Positions 14,030-32,968 of a stretch of DNA of 32,968 nucleotides are shown piece after piece. The stretch is from the NCBI GenBank assembly GCA_019058165.1, contig JAHLVZ010000001.1, positions 62,412-95,379 on the forward strand. The letters run 5' to 3'. Made by a program: the position numbers and the translations under genes. A model generated the notes under the pieces. It saw only the letters and a list, made by a program, of their open reading frames with translations. It was not told where the DNA came from and searched no databases. The stretch comes from Candidatus Heimdallarchaeota archaeon. Its GTDB lineage: Archaea; Asgardarchaeota; Heimdallarchaeia; JABLTI01. The first letter of the stretch is position 1, and each line of letters opens with the position of its first letter.

Positions 14030-14172
14030 GAAAATAGAAAAGGGAATTCTTTTTCTTAATTTCTCATTTTAGACTTAGATAGCTCGTTTGAAAATTCTCA
14101 CTCGTTTTCTATATTTTACCTAATGAGAAATAACAAGACTGCAAAAGAGTAAGAAGAATGAAAAACAAGGTT

Positions 14173-15586: not shown

Positions 15587-15712
15587 CAAATGACTAATAT
15601 TAGGTTTTTTGAATGGAAATCAATGATAAAAAGAGTTAGTTGAATTAAAATAACTCAATATTTACACAAAAAGACAAAAAGAAAGTATGTAAAGTAATTA
15701 TAGGTTAAATGA

Positions 15713-18700
15713 ATGAATTACTCTTTTCAGTATCGAAAACGATTAAAGAGAATATCTTTCGTATTTCTGTTTCTAGTTTTCATCCAGAGTAATGCACTTA
15801 TTATTCAAAGTGATTTGACTTTAGTTATTTCACCTGCTGATTCTTCTTTTACTAAACAAGCATCAAATACTACACAAATGTGGCTACCAGAGGTAGATAA
15901 TTTGTATGTTGGTTTTATTGAGTGGTTGCCAGAAGAAGTGCTAGAGGAAAATACTGGATTTATTCGAGATCTAAAAATAGCTATTGATGGGTTTAACAAT
16001 ACACATGTTTTTTGGGTTCAAATAATAGATAGTAACTGGCAGTTACTTGAGAAAATAAAATTTGCAGTCAATAGTACATGGAATGAACATCAAGTTTTAA
16101 GCTATCTTACTGATAGTAATGAAATTTGGATGTTTGATGTTGCAACCTCTAATGATGGGAAAATTCATTTAACATGGGAGAATAACGGACAAATTTTTTA
16201 TCGATATTACGTAAATCCTACTTGGAGTTCAGTATCATTTATTGCTTATGGGAAAAAACCTAAAATCGAGATAAGTATTTCAAATAATCCAGGGGTAATT
16301 TTTACCCAATCTGTAAATATTGAATATACTTATTATATGAGTCATAAATTTGCAGTATATTCAGCTACAGATGATTTATGGGAATATACCGAATTTGGCC
16401 TTTATTGGGAGGGTAGGGATTCCAATCATGACTTTACAACTAATATACAGAATGGAAAAGAATACTTCCAAGGTATTGTGTGTCATTTAAGAAAAACATG
16501 GAATCGTGAGGAGAGTAGATACTATACAAATTTCACTTTAGATTCAGTAAGTAAAGCAAACGATTCAGAGATATTACAAACCATCACTATTGAAGATGAC
16601 CCTTTGCTAGAAAGACCATTTTATTGGAATAGCGAACCAATAATATTAAGCGATAAAGAGAATAAAATGCATGTCATAGTAGATTATTGGGGACTGAATG
16701 GACAAGAAATCTTCTGTTACCAATATAATGGAGGGAATTGGGGATCGCGAATTAAACTCTCTACGACCGCTTCTCCGGATGTTTCAGTTGTTCATAAAAC
16801 AGCTGCAATAGATCCTTCAGGAGGAGTGACGAGTGTATGGACTGAGAGGAGATTCATCAATAGTTCAATTGAAACAGGTATGCTACAAATAAAATCATAC
16901 AAGCCAACATCCGGATGGTCGGAAACAGCTTATTTACAAACCAATCTTACTTATTCTAGAAGTCCATATCTTGAATTTGATGCAGCAGGAGACGCCCATT
17001 TAGTTTGGTGGGAAGATTTTGAAGGAGAAAGAACACTACACTATCGTTTTGGATATGGAGATGGAGACGGAGATGGATTATCAAATAAAGATGAAAAAAT
17101 ATATGGAACTGATCCTGACGATCCTGACACCGATGATGACCAAATGCTGGATGGAGAGGAAATTGCCAATGGTTTTGATCCGCTCAATCCTGATGAGGAC
17201 ACAGATGGAATGTTGGATGGATATGAATTTCATTATGGATTAGATCCATATTCAGATGATTCACTAGGGGATCTAGACAACGATTCTTTATTGAATATTG
17301 AAGAGTTCCTAGCAAACACATATCCAAACGATAATGATTCTGATGATGACTTTGTGAGCGATTATGAGGAGGTGGTTATTTATTTATCAAATCCATTGAA
17401 CACTGATACAGATGGTGATACGTTAGACGATGGTTTAGAGATCAATGATTTAAGTTCTGATCCAAATTCAGGTGATTCCGATAATGATACGATGTCTGAT
17501 GCGTATGAATATCTCTATCGGGATTATTTAGACATTAATGTCAATGATTCTGCATTAGATCCAGATGGAGAAGGCCTAATCAATCTCTACGAATACCAAT
17601 GGAATCTGCATCCCGGACAAGTTGATTATGAGGGCGATGGACTTGATGATTACCAGGAAGTGATGGTGTGGGGAACAAATCCCGTACTATTTGACACAGA
17701 CAAAGATGGTTATATGGATGGGGTGGAAGTTTATGGAATATATGCTCCTACTAATCCTGCAGCTAATGCAACAGGCTATGTTTTTACTAATCCAACATTA
17801 TGGGATACCGATGGTGATTTACTATCTGACAAAACTGATATAACAATAAATTGCAATCCTCTTGACAATGATACAGATGATGATTTAATGTCAGACGGGT
17901 ATGAATACTATATGCAACTGGATCCTCTTAATGCTTCAGATGCTACACTAGATCTCGACGGTGATACCCTGACCAATTACGAAGAGTTCTTACTGTGGAC
18001 TGATCCTAAAAATACCGATACGGATGGAGATAAACTCTGGGATAATGAAGAGCTCGTATATGGATCAGACCCCACCTTTTATGACACTGATGGAGATGGG
18101 CTTAATGATTACGTTGAAATAATCGTTTTATTAACGAATGTTACCAATCCAGATACAGATCTTGATGGGTTGCTAGATGGATTAGAAGTCCATACATACT
18201 ATTCTAATCCTCACATTCAGGACACAGACGGTGACACTATTATTGATGGGGATGAAGTTTATATCTATAACACAAATCCAACAACCATTCACTCAGATGA
18301 TGATCTTCTTGCAGATAACTTAGAAATAATCTTTGGAACTAATCCCAATCAAAAAGATACCGACATAGATGGGATGGATGATTTTTGGGAATGGCAGTAC
18401 GGATTGAATGGAACAATAAATGATTCCAACCTAGATTTTGATAATGATAATGTAATAAATATTGTTGAATATAATAAAGGCTCAAATCCATTACTTGCTG
18501 AAAGCGATGATGATGGGATTATAGACTATGATGAAATCTATATCTACTTCACCCATCCAGGAATGAATGATACAGATGAAGATGGTTTGTCTGACTATGA
18601 GGAATTATTCGTGTATCTAACGATACCTTATGACGCGGATACAGATGATGATGGATTATGGGATGGGTATGAAATTGAGATTGGAACTGATCCTTTGCAT

Positions 18701-18967
18701 GTTGACACAGATAGAGATGGAGTTAGTGATGAACAAGAGTTGGAGGAAGGAACAGATCCTTTGGAACCAAATAGTAATCGTTTGAGAATTACTCTTATCA
18801 CATTTCTTATTGTTTCTAATATAGTACTTGGTTCACTTACTTTGTATTATGGAGTTCCATGGGTGATTTCAAAACGCAAAAAGAATATTGAGCTCTTATG
18901 GATGAAACAGGGTTTGGAAACAAAAGAAAGAGAGTCAAAAAATGAAGAAATGACTAAGAATTCTTAG
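15713..18967 (+). CDS. Giant membrane-anchored surface protein with about 24 thrombospondin-type-3-like Ca2+ repeats
   Basis: 1084 aa. A basic N-terminus and hydrophobic stretch (about residues 14-30) form a signal peptide or anchor. Residues about 40-440 carry spaced 'IHLTW', 'MHVIVDYW' and 'AHLVWWEDF' strands, as in a beta-propeller. From about 447 to 1015 runs an unbroken series of D-x-D-x-D-G-x-x-D-x-x-E motifs ('DTDGDGLNDYVEI', 'DTDLDGLLDGLEV'), I count about 24, each expected to bind Ca2+ as in TSP type-3/dockerin-like loops. A TM helix at about 1024-1050 and a charged cytoplasmic tail end the protein. It should form a long, calcium-stiffened rod on the cell surface. Exact ligand or adhesion target unknown. 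No clear partner gene. Confidence 0.85.
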   Translation: MNYSFQYRKRLKRISFVFLFLVFIQSNALIIQSDLTLVISPADSSFTKQASNTTQMWLPEVDNLYVGFIEWLPEEVLEENTGFIRDLKIAIDGFNNTHVFWVQIIDSNWQLLEKIKFAVNSTWNEHQVLSYLTDSNEIWMFDVATSNDGKIHLTWENNGQIFYRYYVNPTWSSVSFIAYGKKPKIEISISNNPGVIFTQSVNIEYTYYMSHKFAVYSATDDLWEYTEFGLYWEGRDSNHDFTTNIQNGKEYFQGIVCHLRKTWNREESRYYTNFTLDSVSKANDSEILQTITIEDDPLLERPFYWNSEPIILSDKENKMHVIVDYWGLNGQEIFCYQYNGGNWGSRIKLSTTASPDVSVVHKTAAIDPSGGVTSVWTERRFINSSIETGMLQIKSYKPTSGWSETAYLQTNLTYSRSPYLEFDAAGDAHLVWWEDFEGERTLHYRFGYGDGDGDGLSNKDEKIYGTDPDDPDTDDDQMLDGEEIANGFDPLNPDEDTDGMLDGYEFHYGLDPYSDDSLGDLDNDSLLNIEEFLANTYPNDNDSDDDFVSDYEEVVIYLSNPLNTDTDGDTLDDGLEINDLSSDPNSGDSDNDTMSDAYEYLYRDYLDINVNDSALDPDGEGLINLYEYQWNLHPGQVDYEGDGLDDYQEVMVWGTNPVLFDTDKDGYMDGVEVYGIYAPTNPAANATGYVFTNPTLWDTDGDLLSDKTDITINCNPLDNDTDDDLMSDGYEYYMQLDPLNASDATLDLDGDTLTNYEEFLLWTDPKNTDTDGDKLWDNEELVYGSDPTFYDTDGDGLNDYVEIIVLLTNVTNPDTDLDGLLDGLEVHTYYSNPHIQDTDGDTIIDGDEVYIYNTNPTTIHSDDDLLADNLEIIFGTNPNQKDTDIDGMDDFWEWQYGLNGTINDSNLDFDNDNVINIVEYNKGSNPLLAESDDDGIIDYDEIYIYFTHPGMNDTDEDGLSDYEELFVYLTIPYDADTDDDGLWDGYEIEIGTDPLHVDTDRDGVSDEQELEEGTDPLEPNSNRLRITLITFLIVSNIVLGSLTLYYGVPWVISKRKKNIELLWMKQGLETKERESKNEEMTKNS

Positions 18968-19073
18968 CTTATTTTTTAAATTCATAAACTCTCACCTTCA
19001 AATCCTTATGTTTGGAGAAATCTGAAGTGTTGAAATTGTAAAGATATTAATAGCTATTTCATATTATATTATT

Positions 19074-19466
19074 ATGAGAATAATGGATTACTCACGTATA
19101 GTTAGCAAAATCGCTGTTGATAAAGACAGCATCACATTAGGGAAAATAATTAGAATTGATGAACTACTTGGAAAAACAATCAAGAAGTATAAACCATATG
19201 CAATGATTATTGTGAAGAAACGATTTAAAAAGAAGGGTTTAGTCGTTCCGATTGATGTTGAGAGGATAGTTAAAGTGGGAGGACAATATGTTTGGTTTGA
19301 TATTTTAAAAGAAGAATTCGATGAACAAGTGAAAACAGCTAAGACGATACAAACCGTTCGAGAAACCTATACTGGTGATACTGGTTTTCATCGAGTAAAA
19401 GGCAGTCTGGGTTTTGCTTATGAACCCTATCGTTTATCTCGAAAGGGTAAGGAAAGGAAAAAGTAA
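19074..19466 (+). CDS. PRC-barrel-like protein, paralogue 1
   Basis: 130 aa as listed; alignment with the paralogue at 22763-23128 suggests the start may be the ATG at 19083 (MDYSRIVSK), giving 127 aa. Pattern 'LGKIIRIDELLGKTIKKYKPYAMIIV', 'VVPIDVERIVKVGGQYVWFDI' fits the PRC-barrel fold, a small beta-barrel used in RNA-processing and membrane-associated proteins. A basic tail (RKGKERKK) follows. Neither ATG has a Shine-Dalgarno; AT-rich 'TATTATATTATT' lies immediately upstream, so a leaderless mRNA is possible. Role unknown. Confidence 0.65.
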   Translation: MRIMDYSRIVSKIAVDKDSITLGKIIRIDELLGKTIKKYKPYAMIIVKKRFKKKGLVVPIDVERIVKVGGQYVWFDILKEEFDEQVKTAKTIQTVRETYTGDTGFHRVKGSLGFAYEPYRLSRKGKERKK

Positions 19467-19468
19467 AA

Positions 19469-19501
19469 AATCTACAGCTCCATCAATCCTAAATACTCTG
19501 G
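19469..19501 (+). repeat. 3'-flanking short repeat, copy A (after PRC-barrel gene)
   Basis: 'AATCTACAG' followed by CTCCATCAATCCTAAATACT and CTG, starting three bases after the stop codon. It is similar to 21404-21446 behind the S9 peptidase gene, which has a 12-base insertion between the two parts. It could be a processing or termination element. Confidence 0.5.
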
Positions 19502-19596
19502 TACTAACCAAGAAAAAAGGAAAAGACAAAGAGTTCTTAATTATTTATTCTCTTTTTCAAAAAAATATCTATATCTAAAGAGAATATTACTATATT

Positions 19597-21393
19597 ATGA
19601 AAGCTAAGGATTTGATAGAAAAATTATCAGAAATTCCTTTCATTCGCTTACGCAAACAAAGCAAATTCCATGATACAATTGATTTCTTCTGGAATGCAAC
19701 TGGGAAATCTGAACTTTACACTCTTTTCCCGCAGACAAAAGAGATTCGACAAATGACTTCGGGAGAACTGAATAATATTTGGTGTGTTCGCTCTCCGGAT
19801 GATAACCTCATTTATTATGGGAGCGATGTTGGAGGGAACGAGCAATTCGCTGCTTTCCAGCTAGCTCTCTCAACAAAGGAAATTCTCCAATTAAGCTCTT
19901 CATATGAATTCGACGAGTCTCCATCAGATATCTCTCCTGATGGTAAATTCTTACTCCTTCTTTCGAAACGTTCAGGTCAGACCAATCTCTTCAAAATGGA
20001 TTTAGCAACAAAAAAAGTCACTCAATTAACAGATCAAAAGAATCCTTTCTGGGGATACGCTTTATGGTCTGTCAAAGATTGGATATATTATAGTGCTAAT
20101 GATACAGATAATCGAAGAAATTTGGATATCTGGGCTGTTCGAGCAAATGGTAAAGAAAATCATCTTTTATATCGTTTCTCACCAGACTCCCGTGAATGGG
20201 TTCTTGACCTTTCAAAAGATGGGAATTATTTGGTGGTTGATACTAATGGAAAAAAGACAAGGCAAGCAGGTGTTCTCAATCTCACAAAGAACGAGATTAC
20301 TTGGTTTGGGAATGAGCAATATGATGAAAAACCCAAAGCTATAAGTCGAGACAATTCGAAATTACTAACCATCCGTTTCAAAGGTCTTGAGCGAATTCCA
20401 GTAGTGTATGATGTTCAAACTGGAGAAGAGCATATCCTGAATGTTAAAGGAGTAGTAATTGAAGGGACTTTTTGCCTAAATGATAATTATGTCGTCTATG
20501 CTCGAAGTGATCCGAAAACACCAATGAGTTTAGCGTTGTATAATCTTTTAACTGATGAAGAAGAAATTATTTTAAAACCCGAGCTTGGCATTCCAGATGA
20601 GCAGCTGATAAATGGAACAGATATTACATATCCATCTTTCGATGGATTAAAGGTACCTGCAGTTCTCTATAAACCAAAAATAGAGAGAGGAGAAAAAGCT
20701 CCAGCTTTAATGTTTCATCCTGGAGGACCAGGGGGACAATTAAGTCTATTATTCTTACCAATACTACAAATCCTCTCTCAGTTGGGTTTTGTAATCCTAG
20801 GTCCCAGTCCTCGAGGTTCTACGGGTTTTGGCATGGAATATTTGAAAGCAAATGTAAAAGATCTAGGTGGAGGAGATGCTATGGATTATGTGTATGGTAA
20901 GAATTATCTTGAATCTTTACCATATGTTGATTCCAATCGAATTGGCGTTTTTGGTGGGTCCTATGGAGGATATATGACTTATATCCTCATGACAAAATAT
21001 GCTGAATATAATTGGGCAGCTGGAGCAGCTATGTATGGTATCACTCATTGGAAAACAGTCTACGACGAGTTTCCTTTAGATTACAAACAATTCTTTGAAG
21101 GATTGCTTGGGAAGTATAAAGAAAACAAAGAACTCTGGGAGGATCGAAGCCCGTTAAATCATGTGGACAAAGTAAATGCACCAATCCTCATGATTCAAGG
21201 TGTAAATGACCCACGGTGTACTATCAGTCAATCACGATTATTCAAACAGAAATTGCTTGACTTAGGAAAACAAGAAGGAATAGATTTCGAGTATCACGAA
21301 TTCGGAGATGTTGGGCATGGAGGAAGAGAGGTTAGGAAGGCAATAGAAGAGAATAAACTGCTCGTGGATTTCTTTTTACGTAAACTAAAATAA
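19597..21393 (+). CDS. S9-family prolyl oligopeptidase / acylaminoacyl-peptidase-like enzyme
   Basis: 598 aa. N-terminal about 340 residues form a TolB/WD40-like propeller with repeats such as 'SPSDISPDGKFLLLLSKRSG' and 'WSVKDWIYYSAND'. The C-terminal alpha/beta-hydrolase has 'HPGGPGGQ' (oxyanion region), the nucleophile Ser in 'GVFGGSYGGYMTY', an Asp in 'QGVNDPRC' and the His in 'DVGHGGRE', giving a complete triad. It has no signal peptide, so it is probably cytoplasmic and digests short or N-acylated peptides, although related proteins are often annotated only as alpha/beta hydrolases. No Shine-Dalgarno is visible before the ATG. Confidence 0.9.
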   Translation: MKAKDLIEKLSEIPFIRLRKQSKFHDTIDFFWNATGKSELYTLFPQTKEIRQMTSGELNNIWCVRSPDDNLIYYGSDVGGNEQFAAFQLALSTKEILQLSSSYEFDESPSDISPDGKFLLLLSKRSGQTNLFKMDLATKKVTQLTDQKNPFWGYALWSVKDWIYYSANDTDNRRNLDIWAVRANGKENHLLYRFSPDSREWVLDLSKDGNYLVVDTNGKKTRQAGVLNLTKNEITWFGNEQYDEKPKAISRDNSKLLTIRFKGLERIPVVYDVQTGEEHILNVKGVVIEGTFCLNDNYVVYARSDPKTPMSLALYNLLTDEEEIILKPELGIPDEQLINGTDITYPSFDGLKVPAVLYKPKIERGEKAPALMFHPGGPGGQLSLLFLPILQILSQLGFVILGPSPRGSTGFGMEYLKANVKDLGGGDAMDYVYGKNYLESLPYVDSNRIGVFGGSYGGYMTYILMTKYAEYNWAAGAAMYGITHWKTVYDEFPLDYKQFFEGLLGKYKENKELWEDRSPLNHVDKVNAPILMIQGVNDPRCTISQSRLFKQKLLDLGKQEGIDFEYHEFGDVGHGGREVRKAIEENKLLVDFFLRKLK

Positions 21394-22762: not shown

Positions 22763-23128
22763 TTATTTCTTCTTCTTACGAGGTTTTGGTCTATAGTCAG
22801 ATCCTCCTCCTGCGGTAACCCAAGAAGTTGGCACATGATCGTCAAATGTTTCACGTTCTTTTCTTAAAACCTCTATTCGTTTTATCTCTACCTCAAAATC
22901 TTCCTTGGAAATATCAAACAACACATGACTTTCTTGCTCCTTAATCACTTTTTCAAGATCAATTGGGACAAAGATTTTTCTTCGTAAAAACCGATTCACT
23001 TGAACAATAGCATATGGTTTATATTTTTTTATCGTTTTTCCTATCAAGTCTTCTATTCGAATTATTTTACCAAGTTTTTCTCCATTCTTACACATTGCAT
23101 TTTTTGAAATGAAATTTATATAATTCAA
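22763..23128 (-). CDS. PRC-barrel-like protein, paralogue 2
   Basis: About 121 aa from the TTG at 23128 (MNYINFISKNAMCKNG). The GTG at 23137 in the ORF track overlaps the strong Shine-Dalgarno GGAGGGGTG, which has a five-base spacer to this TTG, and the TTG also aligns with the start of paralogue 1. Shared segments: 'LGKIIRIEDLIGKTIKKYKPYAI' and 'FVPIDLEKVI'. The tail is basic (RPKPRKKKK). It stands about 3.3 kb from paralogue 1 on the opposite strand, next to duplicated module A. Role unknown. Confidence 0.65.
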   Translation of the reverse strand: MNYINFISKNAMCKNGEKLGKIIRIEDLIGKTIKKYKPYAIVQVNRFLRRKIFVPIDLEKVIKEQESHVLFDISKEDFEVEIKRIEVLRKERETFDDHVPTSWVTAGGGSDYRPKPRKKKK

Positions 23129-23203
23129 ATTATACACCCCTCCTTTTTTAGTGACAAATATCCTGAAATAATATTCAATAAGGACAATTAATAATAATCA
23201 TCT

Positions 23204-24391
23204 CTATCCACTTTTCTTCTTCCACAGAATTAGAATCGAAGCTCCAACCACTACTACTGGTAATCCAATACCAAGTCCTAAACCCAGATTCAGTCCTACA
23301 GAATTCTCAAAGTATGTGTAGGTTCTGATGGTATCACTAATGGATAAGAACAAGTGGGTTTCTGTTACTGTTAGTCGATCAAATATTTGGTCTCCGGTGT
23401 CTATCCCAGCAATCCTTTTCACTTTGTGAGGGTTGCTTATGTCGAAAATACTGAGGTTTCTTCCACCAGCGAATAATCGATCGCCCACAATATCTATGTC
23501 ATGAATAATTCCTTCAACAGCTAAGTTCTTTTCAGGAAAGTCGTAATCCCAACAAATTATTGGATTAAAAGGATCTGCGCAGTCATAGACTTGAATCCCA
23601 GATTCCAAAAAGGTATTTATGACATAGTTCCCGTACACCCCACTACTAACAGAGGTGTTTTTTGTACTTTGAATTTCTCCATATAATAAAGGATGAACTG
23701 GATCCGCTATATTATAGATTTTTACACCATTCCCCACCAAGTACAAGAAGTCATTAATGACATGCATTCCCCCACCAGACGACGGAACAAACGCCACTTG
23801 CTCAGGTGACGACTGATTACTGCAATTAAAGATTAGCAAATCGTCTGAGCTAACATAGGCATAATTTTTGTATCCAATTATCTGTCTTGGACTCTCAACC
23901 ATATTTGGTATACTTAACTTAGAAGAATTTCCTAATAGAACAGGATTTGTTAAGTCAGTCATATTTACAAGTGCTACTAAAAATCTTTCCACACACAAAA
24001 CCGACCTCTCTACGAGTAAATAAGCAATGTTCTCACTAATATTGAAATCTTTAATCTACCAAGTAGAATTTAAGACATACCTTCCAACAACAACAGGACT
24101 CTCAGGTTGGTGAACATCTATAATCTGTACTATGTTCCTATATCCCGGATCTTGAGAGTTATTCGCTACCCAGAGATAAAGATACCCGTCCTGTTCACAA
24201 AGAACATAACCACTCTCCCATGCTTCTTGTAGGAAAGGAGTATCTACTTCGTCTATGAGGTAAAATCCCTCGCCCATAATAGTGGCATTATTCATTGAAA
24301 CGATAAGTAAGATAGAACATATAAAAAGCAACTTCAGCAGTGAAGAGACTGAATCCCTTCTAACTTTGCTTCTATTTTCATTTCTTTTCAT
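23204..24391 (-). pseudogene. LVIVD-repeat beta-propeller surface protein interrupted by one in-frame amber codon
   Basis: Two ORF-track entries (24433-24056 and 23998-23204) are the same reading frame: exactly 19 sense codons lie between the TAG at 24056-24058 and the second listed start, with no other stop. The joined protein is about 395 codons. It starts at the ATG at 24391 (MKRNENRSK), which has GGTGAT-GGGAG upstream, has a signal-like segment at about 17-32, LVIVD-type blades ('QIIDVHQPESPVVVG', 'IYNIADPVHPLLYG', 'IFDISNPHKVKRI') and a C-terminal TM with a KKKSG tail. The sense codons after TAG still read like a blade ('KDFNISENIAYLLVE'). Nonsense mutation, sequencing error or readthrough cannot be told apart here. 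Confidence 0.8.
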
Positions 24392-24393
24392 AA

Positions 24394-24404
24394 CTCCCAT
24401 CACC
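24394..24404 (-). promoter_or_regulatory. Strong Shine-Dalgarno of the interrupted LVIVD gene
   Basis: GGTGATGGGAG on the minus strand lies just before the ATG at 24391 and decides that start against three further upstream methionines in the ORF track. A TATA-like CCTATATAG lies about 45 bases upstream of the start. Confidence 0.6.
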
Positions 24405-24467
24405 ATTAACAAGCTAAGTAATATTATTAACACTATATAGGGTGTTTACCTTATTCTATTTTTCTAA

Positions 24468-24492
24468 TACTTTACAACCAAGACAAAGAATT
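24468..24492 (+). repeat. 25-bp interspersed direct repeat, copy 1
   Basis: TA + CTTTACAACCAAGACAAAG + AATT. Between the SBBP gene and the interrupted LVIVD gene, upstream of the latter. Its left flank is homologous to that of copy 6. Confidence 0.9.
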
Positions 24493-24603
24493 TTTCAGCA
24501 AAAGAGATCTCATTAACCGCAACAAGTTATTTGTGTATGTTAGATGAGTCTTTACCTAATTTCAAACAGGATTTTCCCCATTTTAAAACTAAAAAAAGTA
24601 AAG

Positions 24604-26187
24604 CTACTTCTGTTTCTTATATACAATGAGTGCGATTACAGGCATGGTTGCGAAGAGCATGACGGCTATGAAGACTAAAAATACAGTAACAGTAAGAGGT
24701 CGGGTAATTGGTATAGGTGAGTCAACAAATTTCGTAACAAAAGCATCACTCGAACCACCTAAGATATAACCATAAGCATTCTCAGTGGGAAAATCATTTG
24801 AACGGGTATCACCTGTGACAAAACAGCTCCCATCACTAGCAAAAGCAATCCCCCATCCATTATCAGAATCACTACCTCCCAGAAACGTGCTCCACAAAAG
24901 GGAGCCGCTGGAATTGAATCTACCAACAAAAGCATCCGACGTACCACCATATGCACTATCATATGCATTCAACATTGGGAAATCATCTGAACGGGTATCT
25001 CCTACCACCAAGCAACTATCATCACCACGAACAGCAATATCATGAACACGATCCGAATCACTTCCACCAAGAAAAGTGCTCCAGAGTAAAGAACCTCTCT
25101 TAGAAAATTTTGTAATGAAAACATCATCATCACCATTAATCGTCTCATCATAGGCATTTTTAGTAGGGAAATCACTTGAATAAGTAAAACCAGCAATATA
25201 ACAATAACCATTAAAAGCAGTAGCAATACCTATTCCTTTATCTAAATTACTACCTCCGAGAAAAGTACTCCACTGAATGATTCCATTCGCAGAAAATTTA
25301 GTAACAAAAGCATCAGTACCTTCAATGGTAGAATCATAAGCATTTAATGTAGGAAAATCAGTTGAAGTAGTATAGCCTGTAATATAACAGCTGTTATCAC
25401 TTGCAACAATAATACCCTTAGCTTCGTCCCATGAAGCTCCTCCGAGGTAGGTGCTCCAGAGGAGCGAACCACTTGCTGAGAACTTGGAAACAAAAGCATC
25501 ACCTTTTAAACCACCATTATAAGAGTTATCATGTGCATTTTTAGTTGGGAAATCACTCGATTTTGTTGAACCTGTTATATAACAGCTACCATCATTAGCT
25601 ACAGCAACACCTCTGCAATATTCGTAATCATTCCCTCCCAAATAAGTACTCCAGAGTAAAGAACCACTTGAAGAAAATTTTGTGATAAAAGCATCGTGAA
25701 AACCACTAAAAGTGCTATTATAAGCGTTCAAGGTTGGAAAATCATTTGATTCAGTATCTCCTATCACATAACAACTGCCATCACTACCAACAGCAATAGC
25801 ATAACAAATATCCCAAATACTTCCTCCTAGGAATGTACTCCATAAAAGCTCTCCATTTGCAGAGAATTTTGCTACAAAAGCATCAGTATTATTAACAAAA
25901 TTGTAAGAAGCATTCAAAATAGGAAAATCAGCTGATCGAGTAGCACCAGTTACATAACAAGAACCATCTTCAGTAACGGCAATATCATTCCCACGATCCG
26001 TCTCATTTCCGCCAAGGTAGGTGCTAAAATTCAATTTGGGATAGGTTGCAGGTAAAGCTTCAGGATAAGCAAGTGTTATAGTTTGTTCAGTAAAAGGAAG
26101 CACTTGCTGGGTTGCAGAAAGAAACACCACACTTATGAGGAGGACAATGCTCAAACGATTGATTACTAATCGTAAAAATTTTCCCAA
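24604..26187 (-). CDS. Membrane-anchored SBBP-repeat beta-propeller protein, exactly seven repeats
   Basis: 527 aa, TTG start with GAGGGTT seven bases upstream. Signal peptide at about 12-30. Seven repeats of about 60-65 residues follow the pattern 'GSCYVTGxTxSxDFPTxNAY ... DAFVTKFSxxGSLLWSTFLGGS', the SBBP (seven-bladed beta-propeller) repeat; seven units match one closed propeller. Each has a conserved Cys in 'SCY'. A C-terminal TM (about 495-522) and the tail KKQK anchor it outward. The DNA repeats are also visible. Probably a surface-exposed binding or adhesion module; ligand unknown. Repeat copies 1 and 2 lie on either side of this gene. Confidence 0.85.
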   Translation of the reverse strand: MGKFLRLVINRLSIVLLISVVFLSATQQVLPFTEQTITLAYPEALPATYPKLNFSTYLGGNETDRGNDIAVTEDGSCYVTGATRSADFPILNASYNFVNNTDAFVAKFSANGELLWSTFLGGSIWDICYAIAVGSDGSCYVIGDTESNDFPTLNAYNSTFSGFHDAFITKFSSSGSLLWSTYLGGNDYEYCRGVAVANDGSCYITGSTKSSDFPTKNAHDNSYNGGLKGDAFVSKFSASGSLLWSTYLGGASWDEAKGIIVASDNSCYITGYTTSTDFPTLNAYDSTIEGTDAFVTKFSANGIIQWSTFLGGSNLDKGIGIATAFNGYCYIAGFTYSSDFPTKNAYDETINGDDDVFITKFSKRGSLLWSTFLGGSDSDRVHDIAVRGDDSCLVVGDTRSDDFPMLNAYDSAYGGTSDAFVGRFNSSGSLLWSTFLGGSDSDNGWGIAFASDGSCFVTGDTRSNDFPTENAYGYILGGSSDAFVTKFVDSPIPITRPLTVTVFLVFIAVMLFATMPVIALIVYKKQK

Positions 26188-26193
26188 AAAACT

Positions 26194-26200
26194 AACCCTC
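26194..26200 (-). promoter_or_regulatory. Shine-Dalgarno in shared leader, SBBP gene
   Basis: Minus-strand TATATTACTGAGGGTTAG precedes the TTG start; the GAGGGTT part is the ribosome binding site. The block resembles the leaders of 22658, 26880 and 27491. Confidence 0.5.
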
Positions 26201-26296
26201 AGTAATATACTCTTAACTTGTAATAATTAAATACTTTTGTAAAAAATAACCAGAAATTGTTAGTCATGACCTTTGAAGAATTACTTGAGTGAATTT

Positions 26297-26321
26297 TACT
26301 TTACAACCAAGACAAAGAATT
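26297..26321 (+). repeat. 25-bp interspersed direct repeat, copy 2
   Basis: Perfect copy. It lies one base from the stop codon of the 26323-26880 gene and upstream of the SBBP gene. Confidence 0.9.
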
Positions 26322-26322
26322 T

Positions 26323-26880
26323 TCATCCTTTTCGCTTTCGTTTAAACCTAATTGCAATTATTACACAAGAAAGAAAGACTAACCCATAGCCAATTGAAGA
26401 TAATTTATTCCCAAAATTCAGTACTTTAGTTGTAAAAGTAATCGTAGCATTTGAACCCTCTAAAGGAATTGTACAATAATATTTGATGACCATTCCAACA
26501 CCACAATCAGAAAGCTTCAAAGAGTGATTATTGGAATAGGATTCTCCAGGATTAAGCTGTATTTCATTTTCAATTACCGGAGTCCAGTTAACGCTATAAC
26601 ATGATCCTGTAGCTGGGACATGCGTGAAGAGTACACTTGAATTTGAGTCTAATGAAACAGAGAAACTAAGGAAAACTTCTCCATTATTATGTATCATGGA
26701 AGTGTTTACAGCTACTCCTTGATTCCAATAAATTTCAATCGTTTCTTCATAAAGAGTGGAATCAATAGGTGATTGCACGATTCTTGCGTTTATAATAACT
26801 AATGAAAAGAAAATAACAAGTACTAAAAACGAAATGCTTCTTCTAGAAAGAAACATAGGATAATACAGATTTCTTTTCAA
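26323..26880 (-). CDS. Signal-anchored extracytoplasmic beta protein with C-terminal TM, module B gene 2
   Basis: 185 aa, paralogue of 21513-22106. TTG start, with GGGGTAGG five bases upstream. Hydrophobic N-terminal segment (about 14-32), a beta-rich ectodomain with 'YEETIEIYWNQGVAVNTS', 'DSNSSVLF', 'LNPGESYSNNHS' and 'SNATITFTTKVLN', then a TM and basic tail KRKRKG. Here it has its own TATATTGTATTGGGG leader and 107 bp of spacer holding repeat copy 3, whereas in module A the spacer is only 42 bp and has neither. Function unknown. Confidence 0.65.
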   Translation of the reverse strand: MKRNLYYPMFLSRRSISFLVLVIFFSLVIINARIVQSPIDSTLYEETIEIYWNQGVAVNTSMIHNNGEVFLSFSVSLDSNSSVLFTHVPATGSCYSVNWTPVIENEIQLNPGESYSNNHSLKLSDCGVGMVIKYYCTIPLEGSNATITFTTKVLNFGNKLSSIGYGLVFLSCVIIAIRFKRKRKG

Positions 26881-26885
26881 GTAAA

Positions 26886-26893
26886 CCTACCCC
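26886..26893 (-). promoter_or_regulatory. Shine-Dalgarno in shared leader, module B gene 2
   Basis: Minus-strand TATATTGTATTGGGGTAGG precedes TTTACTTG. It is very close to the leader of module B gene 1 (27491) although the two encoded proteins are unrelated. Confidence 0.55.
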
Positions 26894-26964
26894 AATACAA
26901 TATAATATAACTAATTCATAGTTAAATGTATTCAAACTAGAAATGAAAAATCCATGGAAAATAA

Positions 26965-26989
26965 TACTTTACAACCAAGACAAAGAACT
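26965..26989 (+). repeat. 25-bp interspersed direct repeat, copy 3
   Basis: First 23 bases perfect, last two differ (CT instead of TT). It abuts and slightly overlaps the stop codon (26988-26990) of module B gene 1. Confidence 0.9.
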
Positions 26990-27491
26990 AGAACAGATAT
27001 GTAATCCATTGGTCTTTATACTTGAATTCAATATGCAAAACAATCCCATCATTCAGCGAAGGTTCTTCTTTGTGGATAAAAAATGTATGCACGAAATTCC
27101 TGCGTGGTCCGTTTTCCATATCATATTCAATTGTATCATAATGGATTTGTCTGTCCACTGAAAACAGATGAATGTGTTTTATGCTTACTCGTCCCAGCCT
27201 AACTTCCGTAAATATTTCCAATTTATTATAATCTTGATCATACTGGTAGATGTTCACGCTTTTTATGTAGAGTTCTCCTTGAAATTGTGCTCTCGAAGCA
27301 AAGGGTATAGTAATCGAAGGTACTGCAATGAGCACAAAAACAGTTAACGCAAATACTCCAGTTAATCTTTTGCTGCGGAAGATATTCTTGAAAAACTGCT
27401 TCTTATCCTTACTATCTTTGACTTCTCTATTCTTCCGTCTTCCACTTAATTGCTCAGAACCACACACGTGACAATGTTTTTTTCTCGTCAT
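26988..27491 (-). CDS. CxxC-containing single-TM protein, module B gene 1
   Basis: 167 aa, paralogue of 22149-22658. ATG start with GGGGTGGG five bases upstream. 'HCHVCGSEQLSGRRK' gives one CxxC in the cytoplasmic N-terminus; a TM at about 42-62 ends in 'SITIPFASRAQFQG', matching 'SVYIPLARRAQYPG' in module A; the ectodomain includes 'IKHIHLFSVDRQIHYD' and ends 'YKDQWITYLF'. Followed on the same strand by module B gene 2, but with repeat copy 3 between them. Function unknown. Confidence 0.65.
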   Translation of the reverse strand: MTRKKHCHVCGSEQLSGRRKNREVKDSKDKKQFFKNIFRSKRLTGVFALTVFVLIAVPSITIPFASRAQFQGELYIKSVNIYQYDQDYNKLEIFTEVRLGRVSIKHIHLFSVDRQIHYDTIEYDMENGPRRNFVHTFFIHKEEPSLNDGIVLHIEFKYKDQWITYLF

Positions 27492-27496
27492 GTAAG

Positions 27497-27504
27497 CCCA
27501 CCCC
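27497..27504 (-). promoter_or_regulatory. Shine-Dalgarno in shared leader, module B gene 1
   Basis: Minus-strand ATATATTGTACTGGGGTGGG precedes CTTACATG. Upstream 'AGTTTTATTATTAGGAAAAG' resembles 'AGTTTTATAGTAGAAAAGAG' of module A, so the whole promoter region was duplicated with the gene; the TTTTATTATT part is a candidate TATA box. Confidence 0.6.
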
Positions 27505-27599
27505 AGTACAATATATTATAGCTTTTCCTAATAATAAAACTAATCATAATAATATGAGGAAATGTCAAAGAAATTTGCATTGACTAATAAATTACAACC

Positions 27600-27624
27600 T
27601 ACTTTACAATCAAGACAAAGAATT
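27600..27624 (+). repeat. 25-bp interspersed direct repeat, copy 4
   Basis: One mismatch (ACAATC for ACAACC). It is between divergent genes. Its right flank, through the start of the 135-aa gene, is homologous to that of copy 6. Confidence 0.9.
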
Positions 27625-27702
27625 TTTCACCAGTACGTTCTTCTTTTTTGCTAAAAAATTAAATTCAAAGAAGTACGTTGTGTATTTGAAAATTAATGTG
27701 GG

Positions 27703-28110
27703 TTGTTTTCTTTGTCAGTAAAATGTCTAAATTGTGGGGAAATGATTGAATCGGATAGTGACCAATGCAATAGTTGTGGATTTAAAATTGATAAAAGAGA
27801 ATCCAACGAACAAGTAGCTAAACATCTGCGAATTTTTTCTCTTATCTCATTAATATTTGGTTGTGTAGGAATGGGTTTCTTTTGGTGGTTCCCATTGCTT
27901 CCCTTAAATAATAAAATTAGTCTTGGTAATTGGGTAGCTTTATCTTTGTTTTGTCTCTTTATGATTTCTGCTATTCTTGGAATCATTTTTGGTGGTCTCA
28001 GCGTAAGAAAAGGAAAGAGATGGTTCTCGATAATCGGACTACTGTTTAATGCGTTTACGTTATTTACTCTAATATGGAGTTTAGTGATTTTCATCTTGAA
28101 TTTCTTCTAA
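27703..28110 (+). CDS. Zinc-ribbon protein with three TM segments
   Basis: 135 aa, TTG start. The near-identical copy at 32881 has ATG at exactly this position, which supports the start, although a TTG three codons later (27712) is possible in both. 'KCLNCGEMI ... QCNSCGFKI' is a complete CxxC/CxxC zinc ribbon, followed by TM helices at about 44-70, 76-100 and 107-133. Zinc-ribbon plus multi-TM proteins of this sort are common in archaea and have no settled function. Bounded by repeat copies 4 and 5. Confidence 0.7.
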   Translation: MFSLSVKCLNCGEMIESDSDQCNSCGFKIDKRESNEQVAKHLRIFSLISLIFGCVGMGFFWWFPLLPLNNKISLGNWVALSLFCLFMISAILGIIFGGLSVRKGKRWFSIIGLLFNAFTLFTLIWSLVIFILNFF

Positions 28111-28142
28111 ATAATTTTTACAATTTAGACTTTACAGATTAA

Positions 28143-28150
28143 TTTTTTTT
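28143..28150 (+). terminator. T-run, candidate terminator of the zinc-ribbon gene
   Basis: Eight consecutive T residues about 33 bases after the stop codon; archaeal terminators are T-rich tracts without obligatory hairpin. Confidence 0.4.
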
Positions 28151-28256
28151 ACAATCATCAAATCCTTCTCCAAACATTAGTAACAATGCTAAAAGCACAT
28201 TAACAAATTCTCTAAACTTTTCATTTCGCAATTTAATACTTTATATGATGATTAAA

Positions 28257-28281
28257 TACTTTACAACCAAGACAAAGAATT
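28257..28281 (+). repeat. 25-bp interspersed direct repeat, copy 5
   Basis: Perfect copy in the spacer between the zinc-ribbon gene and the large LVIVD gene. Confidence 0.9.
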
Positions 28282-28465
28282 CTAAAACAAATCACCAAAC
28301 AAATAACTCAACTTCTTTATATAATGGATCTTTTCAAGCCCGAAAAGTAAACCACTCTAAGAGATTTCATGAAGACATCATCTAACCACTAATTTCTCCT
28401 GTTTTGTGGATAGGAAACTCCTTGATATATTCTCTTAGTAATTTTTTAATTGTTAATATCATATT

Positions 28466-30829
28466 ATGAACGTAAACTTTATACATCGTAACAGCTTAAC
28501 ATTATCCATGAAGAGGGAAAGAAGCGCACTAATTTTTTCAGAAATTTTATTACTACTAATTAGTTTCTACTTTTCGTCAAATTTTTATTTACAAAATAAT
28601 CCAATAATGGTTGCTGCTTCCCATGAAGATATCACTAAAGATCAGTTATATGCTGATGATTTTCCTACAAGTTATAATTCGCAAAATCTAATGTCAAACA
28701 AACAATTGACCAAGATTTGCGATTTTGATTTTAGCTATGGTGCTATGGAAAAAATCTTTGTAAAAGAAAATTATGTCTATTCAATTTTAGAAAATGGTGG
28801 TTTGCTAATTTTTGACACGTCAATTTCTTCTAAACCAACATTGATTGGTAGCTTTAATGAATTTCAAATAAATACTGGGGGTTTTGTTGGAGATAATTTA
28901 ATTTATCTTGGAATTTTTGGTGGGGGCTCCGCCATAATTAATGTGTCTGATCCTTATAATCCTGTCAAAATTTCAACTTTGAAAGATGTCAATATTGTAA
29001 ACAAATTTTATGTGTCTAATGACTTATTTTTTACTCTTGATGGTTTTAACAGAATATTAGTCTATAATATTAGCAATCCATTAAGACCTGTTCTTTTGTC
29101 GTTAATAGATTATTATACACAAGACTTTACACGTGTGAACGACTTTTCTGTAAAGGGAGATTTGCTTTACATTCTTTTTATTACTGGTCTTGTTATAGTC
29201 GATATTTCAGATCCGGAAAACCCTATTGAATTAGTTAAACATGAGTCCGTTAAAGGATTATCTTTTGATTTTAAAGATGATTATGTTTTGACAACATCAG
29301 TTTTTAGAAATAATTCAATATCGTTTTGTCAATTGAATATTCATGATTTTACTGATCCTTTTACGATCAAAAACATTTCAAGTCTTATTTTAAATACTAC
29401 AGTTTATAATAAAAAAGTTCAAGTTATAAACAATTCAGCATTTATTTATGATGCTGAATTCATAATAGTTAACGTGTCTGAAATTAGCTCTCCTGAAGTT
29501 ATTGGTTTTTATTCCCAAATCTCTTTGCCTTCACAGAACAGGATTCTTTATTTGGATATTAATGAGTGTTTTATTGATTATGAAAAGGAAATCATTTATT
29601 GTGCTGATTTTGGAAATGGTTTGTTAATATTCGATTTTATTAATTATCCCTCTCTATTTTTGAAAGGTTTCTTTGATTCGGGTGGAAAAATTACTGATGT
29701 TTTTGTTAAAGATAAGTTTGTTTATATCAGTGATGTTCGTGAGAGTTATTACAATCCCACCTCGAAATTTAGCATTTATAAAACAGAACATAATTTTAGC
29801 TCCATAACCCTCTTAGGTGAGTATTATCCGAATGGAAGAATTCTCGATTTTATTATAAATGAGCAGTACGTTTATTTGTCTGTTTTAAATTCTGGCATTG
29901 AAATAATTAATATTTCTAATCCAATGGAACCTCAGCTTGTAAATACCTATAACAATAGCTTGAAATATCTAAATGAATTAGTCATTGATTCACAAAACAA
30001 CATACTCTATACAACTGTTTACGATAAAGGACTTGTAATTTTAAATATTTCAAATCCAAAAGAACCACAACTGATTACTGAATACATGCAGATGAATGAC
30101 TGGAATTACAAATATTCCGAGTTTTGTTTAGCAGATGAGCTTCTTATTGTCAAAATTGCTGGAAATGATTATGGTACGGGTTTTTCCATCCTTAATATAT
30201 CTAATCCAAGTCAACCAGCAGTTCTCTGGAGTGGGTATATTAGTCGTTATGTTACATCTCTAAGTGTTTTCGATGATTTGCTCATTGTAGGTAAACATTA
30301 CAATATTGTTGAAATTTATGATATCTCCGATCCAATTTCTCCTGAACTATTATCAAGTGTAAGTAATAACTGGTTTTTTTCTGAAAATGAAATTGTAACA
30401 AAGGAATCTTCAGTTTTTGTTGCAAGAGGTGAAAATGGTTTATTAATTGTTGATATTGAACATCCAAAAATGGCAAGATTAGTAACAACAATGAAGGATC
30501 ATTATAGTGGTGAAAGCTTTGATGTTTTTGTTCAAGGGGATTATGTTTTTTTGGCTGATGGTTGGGATGGTCTTGAGATTTTTAAACTCGATTCATACAA
30601 GCTCAGATTTGTTGTGTTTTTTGTACCAATAGGTGGAATCATTATTGTTTCTTTCATAATTTTCACTAATATCAGGAAAACAAAAAAGTATAAATTAACT
30701 ATGAAAAAAAATCCTACTCGATGCTATAAAAACTTTAATACATTCTCTATGCTTTTCTTTTTTCCTCTCTTCTTGTTCCTTCTTTTCCTTAAGCGTTGTT
30801 TCTCCTGTTTGAGAAGAGTTGTTTTTTGA
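28466..30829 (+). CDS. Large LVIVD-repeat beta-propeller surface protein with two C-terminal hydrophobic segments
   Basis: 787 aa. Signal/anchor at about 22-40. Many LVIVD-type blades ('GLVIVDISDPENPIEL', 'GIEIINISNPMEPQLV', 'GLVILNISNPKEPQLI', 'IVEIYDISDPISPELL', 'GLLIVDIEHP') occupy about 85-705, enough for more than one propeller. A TM at about 713-732 is followed by a basic stretch and a second, very Phe/Leu-rich hydrophobic segment near the end. It is strikingly T-rich on the coding strand compared with the A-rich left-hand genes. No Shine-Dalgarno is seen before the ATG at 28466 or the internal ATG at 28508, so the start is uncertain. Likely displayed outside the cell; ligand unknown. 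Confidence 0.8.
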   Translation: MNVNFIHRNSLTLSMKRERSALIFSEILLLLISFYFSSNFYLQNNPIMVAASHEDITKDQLYADDFPTSYNSQNLMSNKQLTKICDFDFSYGAMEKIFVKENYVYSILENGGLLIFDTSISSKPTLIGSFNEFQINTGGFVGDNLIYLGIFGGGSAIINVSDPYNPVKISTLKDVNIVNKFYVSNDLFFTLDGFNRILVYNISNPLRPVLLSLIDYYTQDFTRVNDFSVKGDLLYILFITGLVIVDISDPENPIELVKHESVKGLSFDFKDDYVLTTSVFRNNSISFCQLNIHDFTDPFTIKNISSLILNTTVYNKKVQVINNSAFIYDAEFIIVNVSEISSPEVIGFYSQISLPSQNRILYLDINECFIDYEKEIIYCADFGNGLLIFDFINYPSLFLKGFFDSGGKITDVFVKDKFVYISDVRESYYNPTSKFSIYKTEHNFSSITLLGEYYPNGRILDFIINEQYVYLSVLNSGIEIINISNPMEPQLVNTYNNSLKYLNELVIDSQNNILYTTVYDKGLVILNISNPKEPQLITEYMQMNDWNYKYSEFCLADELLIVKIAGNDYGTGFSILNISNPSQPAVLWSGYISRYVTSLSVFDDLLIVGKHYNIVEIYDISDPISPELLSSVSNNWFFSENEIVTKESSVFVARGENGLLIVDIEHPKMARLVTTMKDHYSGESFDVFVQGDYVFLADGWDGLEIFKLDSYKLRFVVFFVPIGGIIIVSFIIFTNIRKTKKYKLTMKKNPTRCYKNFNTFSMLFFFPLFLFLLFLKRCFSCLRRVVF

Positions 30830-30896
30830 CTCTTTTTCGGCTGTTTTTCAGGTTCTCTTCTTAAGCGGTTTTTGGTGTTTTAAGCAGAGTTTTTTC
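30830..30896 (+). terminator. T-tract cluster between convergent genes
   Basis: Four runs of five to six T residues follow the stop of the LVIVD gene in a 99-bp convergent spacer. They suit archaeal termination for the plus-strand gene. Confidence 0.45.
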
Positions 30897-30928
30897 GATT
30901 CATTTCTTCTTACACATTGCTTCTCAGT

Positions 30929-32083
30929 TTAGATATCCACTGGGTTTTCTAATGGGTACAAATCCTCATTATCGCTTCCCTCGATTGCATATGTTGCTCC
31001 TAGAAACCAGACTAATTCCGACCAATAATTGCCTTGACTTAGAGAAGCATTGTACCAAACATTTGGTCCATAATCACTTGCTGAGCTACTGTCATCATTT
31101 ACCTGTGATCTGTTTTGTAGGATTCCTGTATAGTAATTATTGATGAAATTGTTAGCATAAAATACCGTGTTAGTACTATCGTCTATTTCAATCGCCAATC
31201 CTGTATTATTGTAAAACACATTTTTGCTTACGCTTGAATTGATTATGTATTCAATATTCATTCCTTTTCCATTAAAACTGAAATAATTCCTCTTAATTGT
31301 GAGATTTAATCCTCTTCCTCCATATCCTGATCGTCCATTATAACTACAATTATTACCCAGAATTGTGGAATTCTCCACCCATGATACAAACATTCCTCTT
31401 TCACTATTATTGTTACACGTGTTGTTTGCGATTACTATTGAATGACTCACCATATATTTACCGTAAAGATACTGATCTTCATGTATGAAGAAAATGCCGT
31501 ACTCATTATTGTTACAGGTATTATTGTCTACCATCAAGTTGTCGTTCAGTCCTAAAAGATGCAAACCATATCTCATATTATTACAGTTATTGTTAGAAAT
31601 TAATGAGTCATAACATCCTGTAGTTTTAATTCCTACTGAGCCATAGCAGATATTATTCCTCACGATTGTACCTGGGCAATAAATCAATTCTATTGATGGT
31701 CTACCCTGTCCTGTAAATATATTATTCTCTATTCTTGCGGTCCCGTATGACACATTCACTAAAACAATTGGATATCCAGCTTCAATGTTACAATTCCTTA
31801 TGATGAAATGACTACTTGTTTGATTTATTTTGATCCCAAAAAGTCTCTTTGTGGAAAAAATAAAATTTTCAATTATGTATGGATCTTCTTTTGTTCCGTT
31901 CCCAGGAAAATGATACCGATTCGCAAAATCTTCATCCCGATAAATGATGATTTCCCCCACAAAATAAACTCGATTCTTCATATGCCATGTTAGTAACCAA
32001 GCACTCACGCTGATTACTAATACTAATTGCACTATTAAGATTGCAACTATAACCCTTATACCTCTCTTACTCTTCCCAAACAT
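30929..32083 (-). CDS. NosD-like right-handed parallel beta-helix protein, N-terminally anchored
   Basis: 384 aa from the ATG at 32083 (MFGKSKRG). The ORF track extends 32 residues into the upstream gene, but GGGGTGA lies eight bases before this ATG and the upstream stop is just two bases away. TM at about 8-31, then 'GNGTKEDPYIIENF' and a series of PbH1 rungs ('NNNCNNMRYGLHLLGLNDN', 'NNTCNNNEYGIFFI', 'NYFSFNGKGMNI', 'NNFINNYYTGI'), ending 'GNYWSELVW ... LYPLENPVDI', the usual end of archaeal NosD/periplasmic copper-binding-type helices. Likely an extracellular glycan-binding or -processing protein. Probably co-transcribed with the upstream membrane protein. Confidence 0.82.
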   Translation of the reverse strand: MFGKSKRGIRVIVAILIVQLVLVISVSAWLLTWHMKNRVYFVGEIIIYRDEDFANRYHFPGNGTKEDPYIIENFIFSTKRLFGIKINQTSSHFIIRNCNIEAGYPIVLVNVSYGTARIENNIFTGQGRPSIELIYCPGTIVRNNICYGSVGIKTTGCYDSLISNNNCNNMRYGLHLLGLNDNLMVDNNTCNNNEYGIFFIHEDQYLYGKYMVSHSIVIANNTCNNNSERGMFVSWVENSTILGNNCSYNGRSGYGGRGLNLTIKRNYFSFNGKGMNIEYIINSSVSKNVFYNNTGLAIEIDDSTNTVFYANNFINNYYTGILQNRSQVNDDSSSASDYGPNVWYNASLSQGNYWSELVWFLGATYAIEGSDNEDLYPLENPVDI

Positions 32084-32085
32084 CT

Positions 32086-32538
32086 TCAAGTCACCCCTTT
32101 TGTTTTCCCTTCTGCTTGAATCATAAGTAATATTTTTTTTCTTCTTATTAAAAACCAAATTAGGTTTCCAATAAAGCAAGCACCTGTAAAAATCGGCCCA
32201 CCTAAGAAAATAACTTGAAACCCTATGTATAAACCATAGTCAAGAATAACTCCAGGTATATTTGAACTGATTCTACTCACATCATCAAAAATAATGAAAA
32301 TAAGAATAATTAAAATGAAATAAATCATGTAAGATGCACCAAATACGAATACTGTTAATGGTATTCTTAGTAATTTATCATGTTTTATCGTTTGCATCTT
32401 TTGAGATAGAAAAACCAATATTAATGACACTAAAGGAATGAGTATTACTAATCCACATAGAAAGACTACGAATAGAATATCTACCCAAATTGGCAGCTCA
32501 AGAAACATCACATTGTTCGGAGCAAGTCTAAATGTCAC
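32086..32538 (-). CDS. Small membrane protein with three to four TM segments, unknown function
   Basis: 150 aa, GTG start with GGAGAGTAGG about nine bases upstream. Hydrophobic segments at about 18-43, 54-80 and 95-135, with a short basic tail. Its stop is two bases before the start of the beta-helix gene, so the pair forms an operon and the two products may work together at the membrane. No family recognised. Confidence 0.65.
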   Translation of the reverse strand: MTFRLAPNNVMFLELPIWVDILFVVFLCGLVILIPLVSLILVFLSQKMQTIKHDKLLRIPLTVFVFGASYMIYFILIILIFIIFDDVSRISSNIPGVILDYGLYIGFQVIFLGGPIFTGACFIGNLIWFLIRRKKILLMIQAEGKTKGVT

Positions 32539-32678
32539 AGGAATAATCCTACTCTCCTCTTAATTTTAGGTATTTAATTATTCATTTCCGAGTATTTAAT
32601 TCTTTTATCAAATCAATTAGTTTGTTACCTTTTTGTTCTTGTTTTTCCCGGAACACTTTTTCCACTATATTCTTCTTT

Positions 32679-32760
32679 TTAGTTATGAAGTTCTTTTCGT
32701 TTCAAAACTCCCAACACCACAAATAAACTAATCAATTTTAGTACTATATATGGTGTTTAC
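32679..32760 (-). pseudogene. Remnant of an LVIVD-gene 5' end (promoter, Shine-Dalgarno, about eight codons)
   Basis: On the minus strand 'GGTGTTGGGAGTTTTGAAACG' corresponds to 'GGTGATGGGAGTTATGAAAAG' at 24391, with TTG in place of ATG and a TAA after eight codons (MKRKELHN). The TATA-like CCATATATAG upstream also matches. The rest of the gene is absent. Confidence 0.5.
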
Positions 32761-32777
32761 TTTATTCTATATTTCTA

Positions 32778-32802
32778 CACTTTACAACCAAGACAAAGAA
32801 TT
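32778..32802 (+). repeat. 25-bp interspersed direct repeat, copy 6
   Basis: One difference (first base C for T). Left flank like copy 1, right flank like copy 4. Confidence 0.9.
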
Positions 32803-32880
32803 CTTCACCGTTTCGTTCTTCTTTTTGCTAAAAAAATTAAATTCAAAGAAGTTTATTGTATGTTTGAAAAGTAATGTGGG

Positions 32881-32968
32881 ATGTTTTCTTTGTCAGTGAA
32901 ATGTCTAAATTGCGGGGAAATGATTGAATCGGATAGTGACCAATGCAATAGTTGTGGATTTAAAATTG
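32881..32968 (+). CDS. Zinc-ribbon membrane protein, duplicate of 27703-28110, 3' end cut by window edge
   Basis: All 88 visible bases align with the start of the gene at 27703, with three differences: the start codon (ATG here, TTG there) and two synonymous changes (GTG/GTA, TGC/TGT). The zinc ribbon 'KCLNCGEMI ... QCNSCGFKI' is complete; the TM part lies outside the window. The upstream 80 bp are also highly similar. A recent duplication whose only visible non-silent change alters the start codon. Confidence 0.85.
   Translation, partial: MFSLSVKCLNCGEMIESDSDQCNSCGFKI

Follow-up and report, generated by a model that had tools for sequence, protein, structure and literature searches.

A directly repeated 22-bp site, ACTTTACAACCAAGACAAAGAA, occurs between genes at a chromosomal hotspot of a Candidatus Heimdallarchaeota archaeon, and sequence comparison indicates that it probably (we put this at about 0.6) delimits a non-integron gene-cassette array that is shuffled by site-specific recombination. 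The window, by which we mean the whole 32,968-bp stretch analyzed here, comprises positions 62412-95379 of contig JAHLVZ010000001.1 (C196) from a MAG of 3.36 Mb (253 contigs, 86% complete), and our whole evidence base consists of fragmented MAGs. Under the proposed mechanism, a cassette would usually hold one gene, oriented either way and encoding a secreted or membrane protein, between directly repeated sites. Recombination between sites would excise, insert or duplicate cassettes, so that the sequences to the left and right of a site would be inherited independently. The last of the six copies in the window may be one such junction, with the remnant of one cassette ('A') on its left and a second copy of another ('B') on its right. 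If this reading is true, genes for secreted and membrane proteins in this archaeal group would turn over by a new route, a non-integron cassette array, and the 22-bp site makes the system directly searchable and testable, using long-read data and heterologous recombination assays.

Distribution and conservation of the 22-bp site

The MAG contains 16 copies of the site, six on C196, four on C202, four on C101 and two on C152, and their orientation is uniform within each contig (6/6, 4/4, 4/4 and 2/2, respectively). All six copies in the window are on the plus strand. Copies 1 (24469-24490), 2 (26298-26319), 3 (26966-26987) and 5 (28258-28279) match ACTTTACAACCAAGACAAAGAA exactly, copy 4 (27601-27622) has one mismatch, and copy 6 (32779-32800) is the point at which the mosaic described below is joined. 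Copy 3 abuts the stop codon of a minus-strand ORF (26988-27491), and three genes without a site stand between copies 5 and 6. A probable decayed site (28115-28138, plus strand) can be found at the 3' end of B, where it aligns with an intact site at C202:116.

Nine further copies are carried by three related contigs, among which L041 and L043 hold four each. An alignment of 25 sites has 22 near-invariant positions, the flanking sequence being little conserved. Cassette identity is 68-92%, against near identity among the sites. Site scores are bimodal, with true sites at 32 bits or above and everything else at or below about 20 bits. Within this genome the site is confined to one locus. Elsewhere, a search of 84,980 species genomes recovered the 22-mer from only three Asgard contigs; these other records are MAG contigs of 'Asgard group archaeon' and 'Candidatus Heimdallarchaeota archaeon', and same-genus genomes match two of them. 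Other families yielded only solitary near matches, each with two mismatches, at about the frequency of a reversed control. IMG/VR holds no exact match to the site, and each of the three degenerate matches in it is a lone site whose flanks are unrelated, which led us to reject viral carriage. A 14-mer screen of related loci in the genus for arrays built on another repeat was negative at every sampled locus. On L042 (JABLTJ010000069.1), a cassette tail and one site (3080-3385) adjoin an ABC permease; the homologous gene on C20 of this MAG is without a site. L042 is possibly a second locus; its bin has been placed in a different family, and the contig may have been binned wrongly.

Towards its left end, the window carries ordinary chromosomal genes, including those for MCH cyclohydrolase, an aminoacyl-tRNA-synthetase-like protein, TRM5/TYW2 and Pol IV. 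Synteny with sister species allowed C196 and C152 to be oriented on the chromosome, and the sites of both contigs run the same way. In G006, G007 and G008, only ~0.6-1.3 kb separates the left flank (C196) from the right flank (C152, Lhr). Because both flanks thus lie at one place in sister species, the array represents a single chromosomal hotspot, which is nearly empty in those species and spans about 40 kb or more in this genome; G001 is compatible with the short sister-species spacing. Contig C114 of G005 aligns to 12642-21041 of the window with uneven identity, 82-86% left of the hotspot and 97.7% over 18965-21041, the latter of which suggests recent exchange at the hotspot edge.

Gene content of the array

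The units between sites mostly contain one gene each, in mixed orientation. Left of copy 1 is the A gene, encoding an LVIVD protein on the minus strand, with its 5' part at 24056-24433 and its 3' part at 23204-23998 (75% identity to C202:208-1477). The division of this gene (23204-24433) into two ORFs reflects either a pseudogene or a sequence error. An SBBP beta-propeller cassette (24604-26187, minus strand; Pfam SBBP), with a homologue at C152rc 1-1583, lies between copies 1 and 2, and an ORF encoding 185 aa with a hydrophobic segment at each terminus (26323-26880, minus strand) lies between copies 2 and 3. The 'D' cassette between copies 3 and 4 (26988-27491, minus strand) encodes 167 aa with a CxxC N-terminus and one hydrophobic segment, and is 88.6% identical to L043 4882-5536. 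Copy 4 is followed by B (27703-28110, plus strand), which encodes a 135-aa zinc-ribbon protein with three hydrophobic segments, and copy 5 by a gene for a 787-aa LVIVD-repeat protein (28466-30829, plus strand; Pfam LVIVD), 92% identical to L041 774-3289.

Positions 28191-28257 resemble L041 3256-3323, where in L041 the 732-aa LVIVD gene is followed by this tail; in the window the stretch precedes copy 5, ahead of the same LVIVD gene, and is a remnant of another such cassette. Homology of the LVIVD cassette stops where a dispersed element of ~145 bp (30752-30896) starts, which is also present in G000:C20, G002:C46, G004:C73 and L042 at 84-89% identity.

Most genes of the array encode N- or C-terminal hydrophobic segments or both, many with basic C-tails, and the domains found among cassette proteins are LVIVD, SBBP and beta-helix. 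The products are mostly secreted or membrane proteins, and they are presumably located at the cell surface. Neighbouring genes are arranged divergently in 7 cases, in tandem in 10 and convergently in 4. As genes run both ways, with four convergent pairs, while site orientation is constant, the site is not consistently a promoter or a terminator, and a promoter, terminator or other gene-linked regulatory element was rejected as the main reading.

Homology on either side of the sites

According to the preliminary description, the sequence left of copy 6 matches the left flank of copy 1, that right of it matches the right flank of copy 4 up to the window end, and homology switches at the repeat itself, as crossover or cassette joining would leave it. 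Each of these observations was borne out. The left flank (32691-32778, minus strand) is a remnant of the A cassette, comprising the 5' end of the LVIVD gene and its upstream region, and resembles the left flanks of copy 1, C101:8133 and C202:1454 both in blastn (82-83%) and in the flank test. The right flank (32801-32968, plus strand) opens a second copy of B, the zinc-ribbon gene with three TM segments, which the contig end cuts off. For copies 6 and 1, the left flanks scored 90 against a shuffle maximum of 35 (0/300), and for copies 6 and 4 the right flanks scored 259 against a shuffle maximum of 36; the crossed comparisons, i.e. left flanks of copies 6 and 4 (21) and right flanks of copies 6 and 1 (23), were at null level. 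In blastn, 24377-24497 aligns with 32691-32807 at 82.6% identity over 121 bp, and 27601-27790 with 32779-32968 at 91.6% over 191 bp, both including the repeat; the right-hand match covers all 168 bp to the window end. The count of 85 identical bases among 88 coding bases of B was exactly confirmed, with differences at 27703, 27720 and 27735 only. Homology extending across the repeat was absent in every tested pair.

Crossover or cassette joining at the repeat is also supported in kind by the wider set of sites, in which all 20 flank-sharing site pairs have the same one-sided pattern: across this genome and the three related contigs, 253 site pairs had enough flank to be tested, and 20 were one-sided and none two-sided. 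In clear cases, homology edges fall within ~4 bp of the site. The SBBP homology has its edge at W-26322 / C152rc-1583, 3 bp past the C152rc site, the D homology at W-27626 / L043-5536, 4 bp past the site, and the LVIVD homology starts exactly at the site (W-28258 = L041-774). The clearest case is that of a whole cassette, C152rc 1558-3036, which corresponds to L041 3323-4717, with sites bounding both copies and neighbours on both sides unrelated between the genomes; the SBBP, D, LVIVD and 421-aa LVIVD cassettes show the same behaviour. The same cassettes are thus seen with different neighbours in different genomes. Neither an exact before/after pair for one cassette insertion nor a circular cassette form was found among the compared MAG contigs.

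Controls qualify these observations. Hotspot gene junctions without a site were one-sided too (4/4 found), and over the opening 15 kb of the window 7/16 junctions were two-sided even against distant genus-mates. One-sidedness alone is therefore not specific to the site, and we rejected it as stand-alone proof; gene turnover in the hotspot can proceed without the site, and the whole island turns over fast. The sites stand out through the sharp homology edge within otherwise conserved intergenic sequence, the number of cases, an orientation that stays constant and a strongly conserved block of 22 bp.

These results bear directly on an alternative that we consider unlikely, yet the most serious: that a fast-evolving island of surface genes is rearranged by ordinary homologous or illegitimate recombination, with the 22-mer as a conserved intergenic element at gene borders that is kept for other reasons, such as factor binding, insulation or transcription. 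It would account for the one-sided junctions that lack a site, it suits a region rich in LVIVD and SBBP paralogues, and in relatives a native 33-aa gene is preceded by sequence resembling the right half of the site. However, ordinary recombination sits poorly with homology that ends no more than ~4 bp from the site edge when, on the shared side, intergenic DNA stays conserved as far as that point, and with a site orientation that is constant whereas gene orientation varies, convergent pairs included. The restriction of the site to one locus in this genome also counts against it, and 22 bp is short for homologous recombination.

Half-sites and a possible insertion step

A second motif, AAGGAAATGACAAAGAG, matches the repeat in its right half only, and we refer to it as the half-site. 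In the window it occurs as AAAAAAGGAAAAGACAAAGAG before the S9 peptidase gene (19513-19533, plus strand; 28.1 bits, null maximum 17.6) and again 28 bp left of copy 4 (27552-27572, plus strand; 23.5 bits), both being training sequences of the matrix. Half-sites are also located at C101:5800, C202:3582, C202:3655, L043:968, L043:3583 and L124:10229. The matrix was built from five instances and, beyond these, detected four that scored higher than anything in 0.9 Mb of random sequence, three of them belonging to the array region and the fourth to the nearly empty G006 locus. Among the loci scanned, no half-site lies outside the hotspot. In front of the S9 peptidase gene, the window carries the half-site alone, and L043 has the half-site followed, after ~48 bp, by a full site.

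To the right of the last site (C152rc:3013) is the 33-aa gene, which stands alone before Lhr in sister species and whose upstream sequence in relatives is loosely similar to the right half of the site. This conserved membrane microprotein of ~33 aa (MIDSNTILYIVYLVLILGGFLALGYHLVSGEEEE in G008) was an unlisted gene, at C152rc ~3078-3180 (reverse complement of L037); it is found upstream of the Lhr helicase gene in G001, G006, G007 and G008.

We hypothesize that cassettes may insert at a native half-site by crossover in GACAAAGA, which would fit the half-site data, these being a few AT-rich alignments. A crossover in the common GACAAAGA core would leave the 22-bp site as the right-hand junction, and later cassettes would insert at that site.

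The half-site data could also be explained if the sites were junctions left by small mobile elements inserting at a short target (GACAAAGA), the cassettes themselves being the insertion elements. Consistent with this, AAGGAAATGACAAAGAG has the right half only, occurs before the S9 peptidase gene of the window, where L043 also has a full site, and is present at the nearly empty G006 locus; the DNA right of the last site is native in relatives. We nevertheless regard insertion elements as rather improbable, as transposases and integrases were not seen within the cassettes, neither terminal inverted repeats nor target duplications were noticed, and many cassettes have just one flank in common.

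Assembly at the contig end

The window ends where C196 ends. The final 55 bp of C196 are identical to 27736-27790, and the opening 55 bp of C202 are identical to 27998-28052; these exact duplicates point to a k=55 graph break inside the duplicated B gene and suggest that C202, whose first site directly follows the stop codon of B, continues the B match of C196. The contigs are predicted to form one array in the order C196, second B copy, C202, C101 and C152, the order of C202 and C101 being tentative. Exact matches through the 16 sites reach at most 45 bp, and that through copy 6 is 26 bp. Both are below a k of 55, so the assembly was not confused by the repeat itself, and the junction at copy 6, for which a wrong join had been raised as an objection, is not an assembly join at the repeat.

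An assembly or binning artefact at the repeat is accordingly very improbable: every array contig ends near repeats, and the window stops 168 bp past copy 6 at a 55-bp exact duplicate, but against this stand the short exact matches through the sites, the ~8% difference between the two B copies and the presence of the same architecture in other MAGs.

Candidate recombinases and comparison with known systems

Returning to the reading as a site-specifically shuffled array, we infer that a site-specific recombinase would be the agent, the likeliest type being a tyrosine recombinase that acts in trans, and that the reaction would be conservative and reversible. Counting against the array is the absence of a recombinase gene beside it, and no PF00589 recombinase is present on the four array contigs. 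The MAG encodes three tyrosine recombinases (C37:1832-2890, C37:520-1071 and a 313-aa protein on C127), with PF00589 matches on C37 and C127 only. All three are nearest to XerA/XerC models, far below cut-offs, and they score 36-56 bits on the IntI model TIGR02249 (cut-off 265) in a MAG that is 86% complete. In G002 and G005, same-genus genomes with arrays, the sole tyrosine recombinase found has the size and profile range of the 352-aa Xer-like protein; a similar Xer-like recombinase is present in G004, which is without sites. Searches for weak sites around the tyrosine recombinase loci of the MAG gave nothing above noise, and serine recombinases were not detected in G000, G002 or G005. An imperfect CTTTAC-AACCAAG-ACAAAG arrangement would, speculatively, suit the core of a phage-type integrase with a 7-bp overlap.

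Integrons have been reported in Asgard archaea (Ghaly et al., 2022; PMC9668308). Like integrons and CALINs, the present locus is a chromosomal tandem array of mostly single-gene units with a conserved site between them, and unit order varies between relatives (PMC9668308). Unlike them, it has a 22-bp block with no attC hairpin, IntI was not detected and attI was not seen, although CALINs are by definition without IntI; cassettes are generally co-oriented in integrons, whereas genes here run both ways (PMC9668308). Folding of 23 sites with 60-bp flanks under DNA parameters gave a mean z of 0.10 on both strands, alifold returned no consensus structure, and Rfam had zero matches in 23000-32968. 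The site neither folds nor belongs to an Rfam family and is thus not an attC site; a structured RNA was rejected on the same grounds, i.e. no Rfam match in that interval and no conserved fold.

The dif/pdif modules of Acinetobacter (XerC/XerD; PMC12907356) are similar in that short sites flank genes, a module needs no recombinase gene of its own, a core recombinase could act in trans, and modules are clustered in chromosomal islands. However, dif sites are 28 bp long, with 11-bp inverted arms, a 6-bp centre and both C/D and D/C orientations, while the present site has 22 bp, a weak dyad and always one orientation (PMC12907356). The best dyad has 5/7 pairs around a 9-bp centre, which 758 of 3000 shuffles equalled or bettered, and this weakness together with the 22-bp length makes the site not dif-like by architecture. 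We tentatively suggest, as a possibility on the doubtful side, a third kind of gene-cassette system, apart from integrons and dif modules, by which Heimdallarchaeia would assemble and renew secreted and membrane proteins, with insertion at the half-site AAGGAAATGACAAAGAG via crossover in GACAAAGA generating the 22-bp site.

The present array has short sites beside genes for presumed surface proteins, as the vpma/Xer1 system of Mycoplasma (PMC2268961) has beside its surface-protein genes; the agent of vpma switching is a tyrosine recombinase, the type of enzyme also proposed here. In vpma, genes are inverted relative to one promoter with the recombinase next door, in contrast to direct sites without a neighbouring recombinase in the present array (PMC2268961). 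The terms 'integron', 'cassette' and 'direct repeat' are absent from the main text on aloposons and other mobile elements of Heimdallarchaeum (Wu et al., 2022; PMC8813620). Those elements are alike in being mobile DNA in the same archaeal group, and unlike in being large, carrying giant genes and integrating at tRNA sites (PMC8813620). The window also contains two TnpB-like (IS605 OrfB) genes, at 72-812 and 10799-11992.
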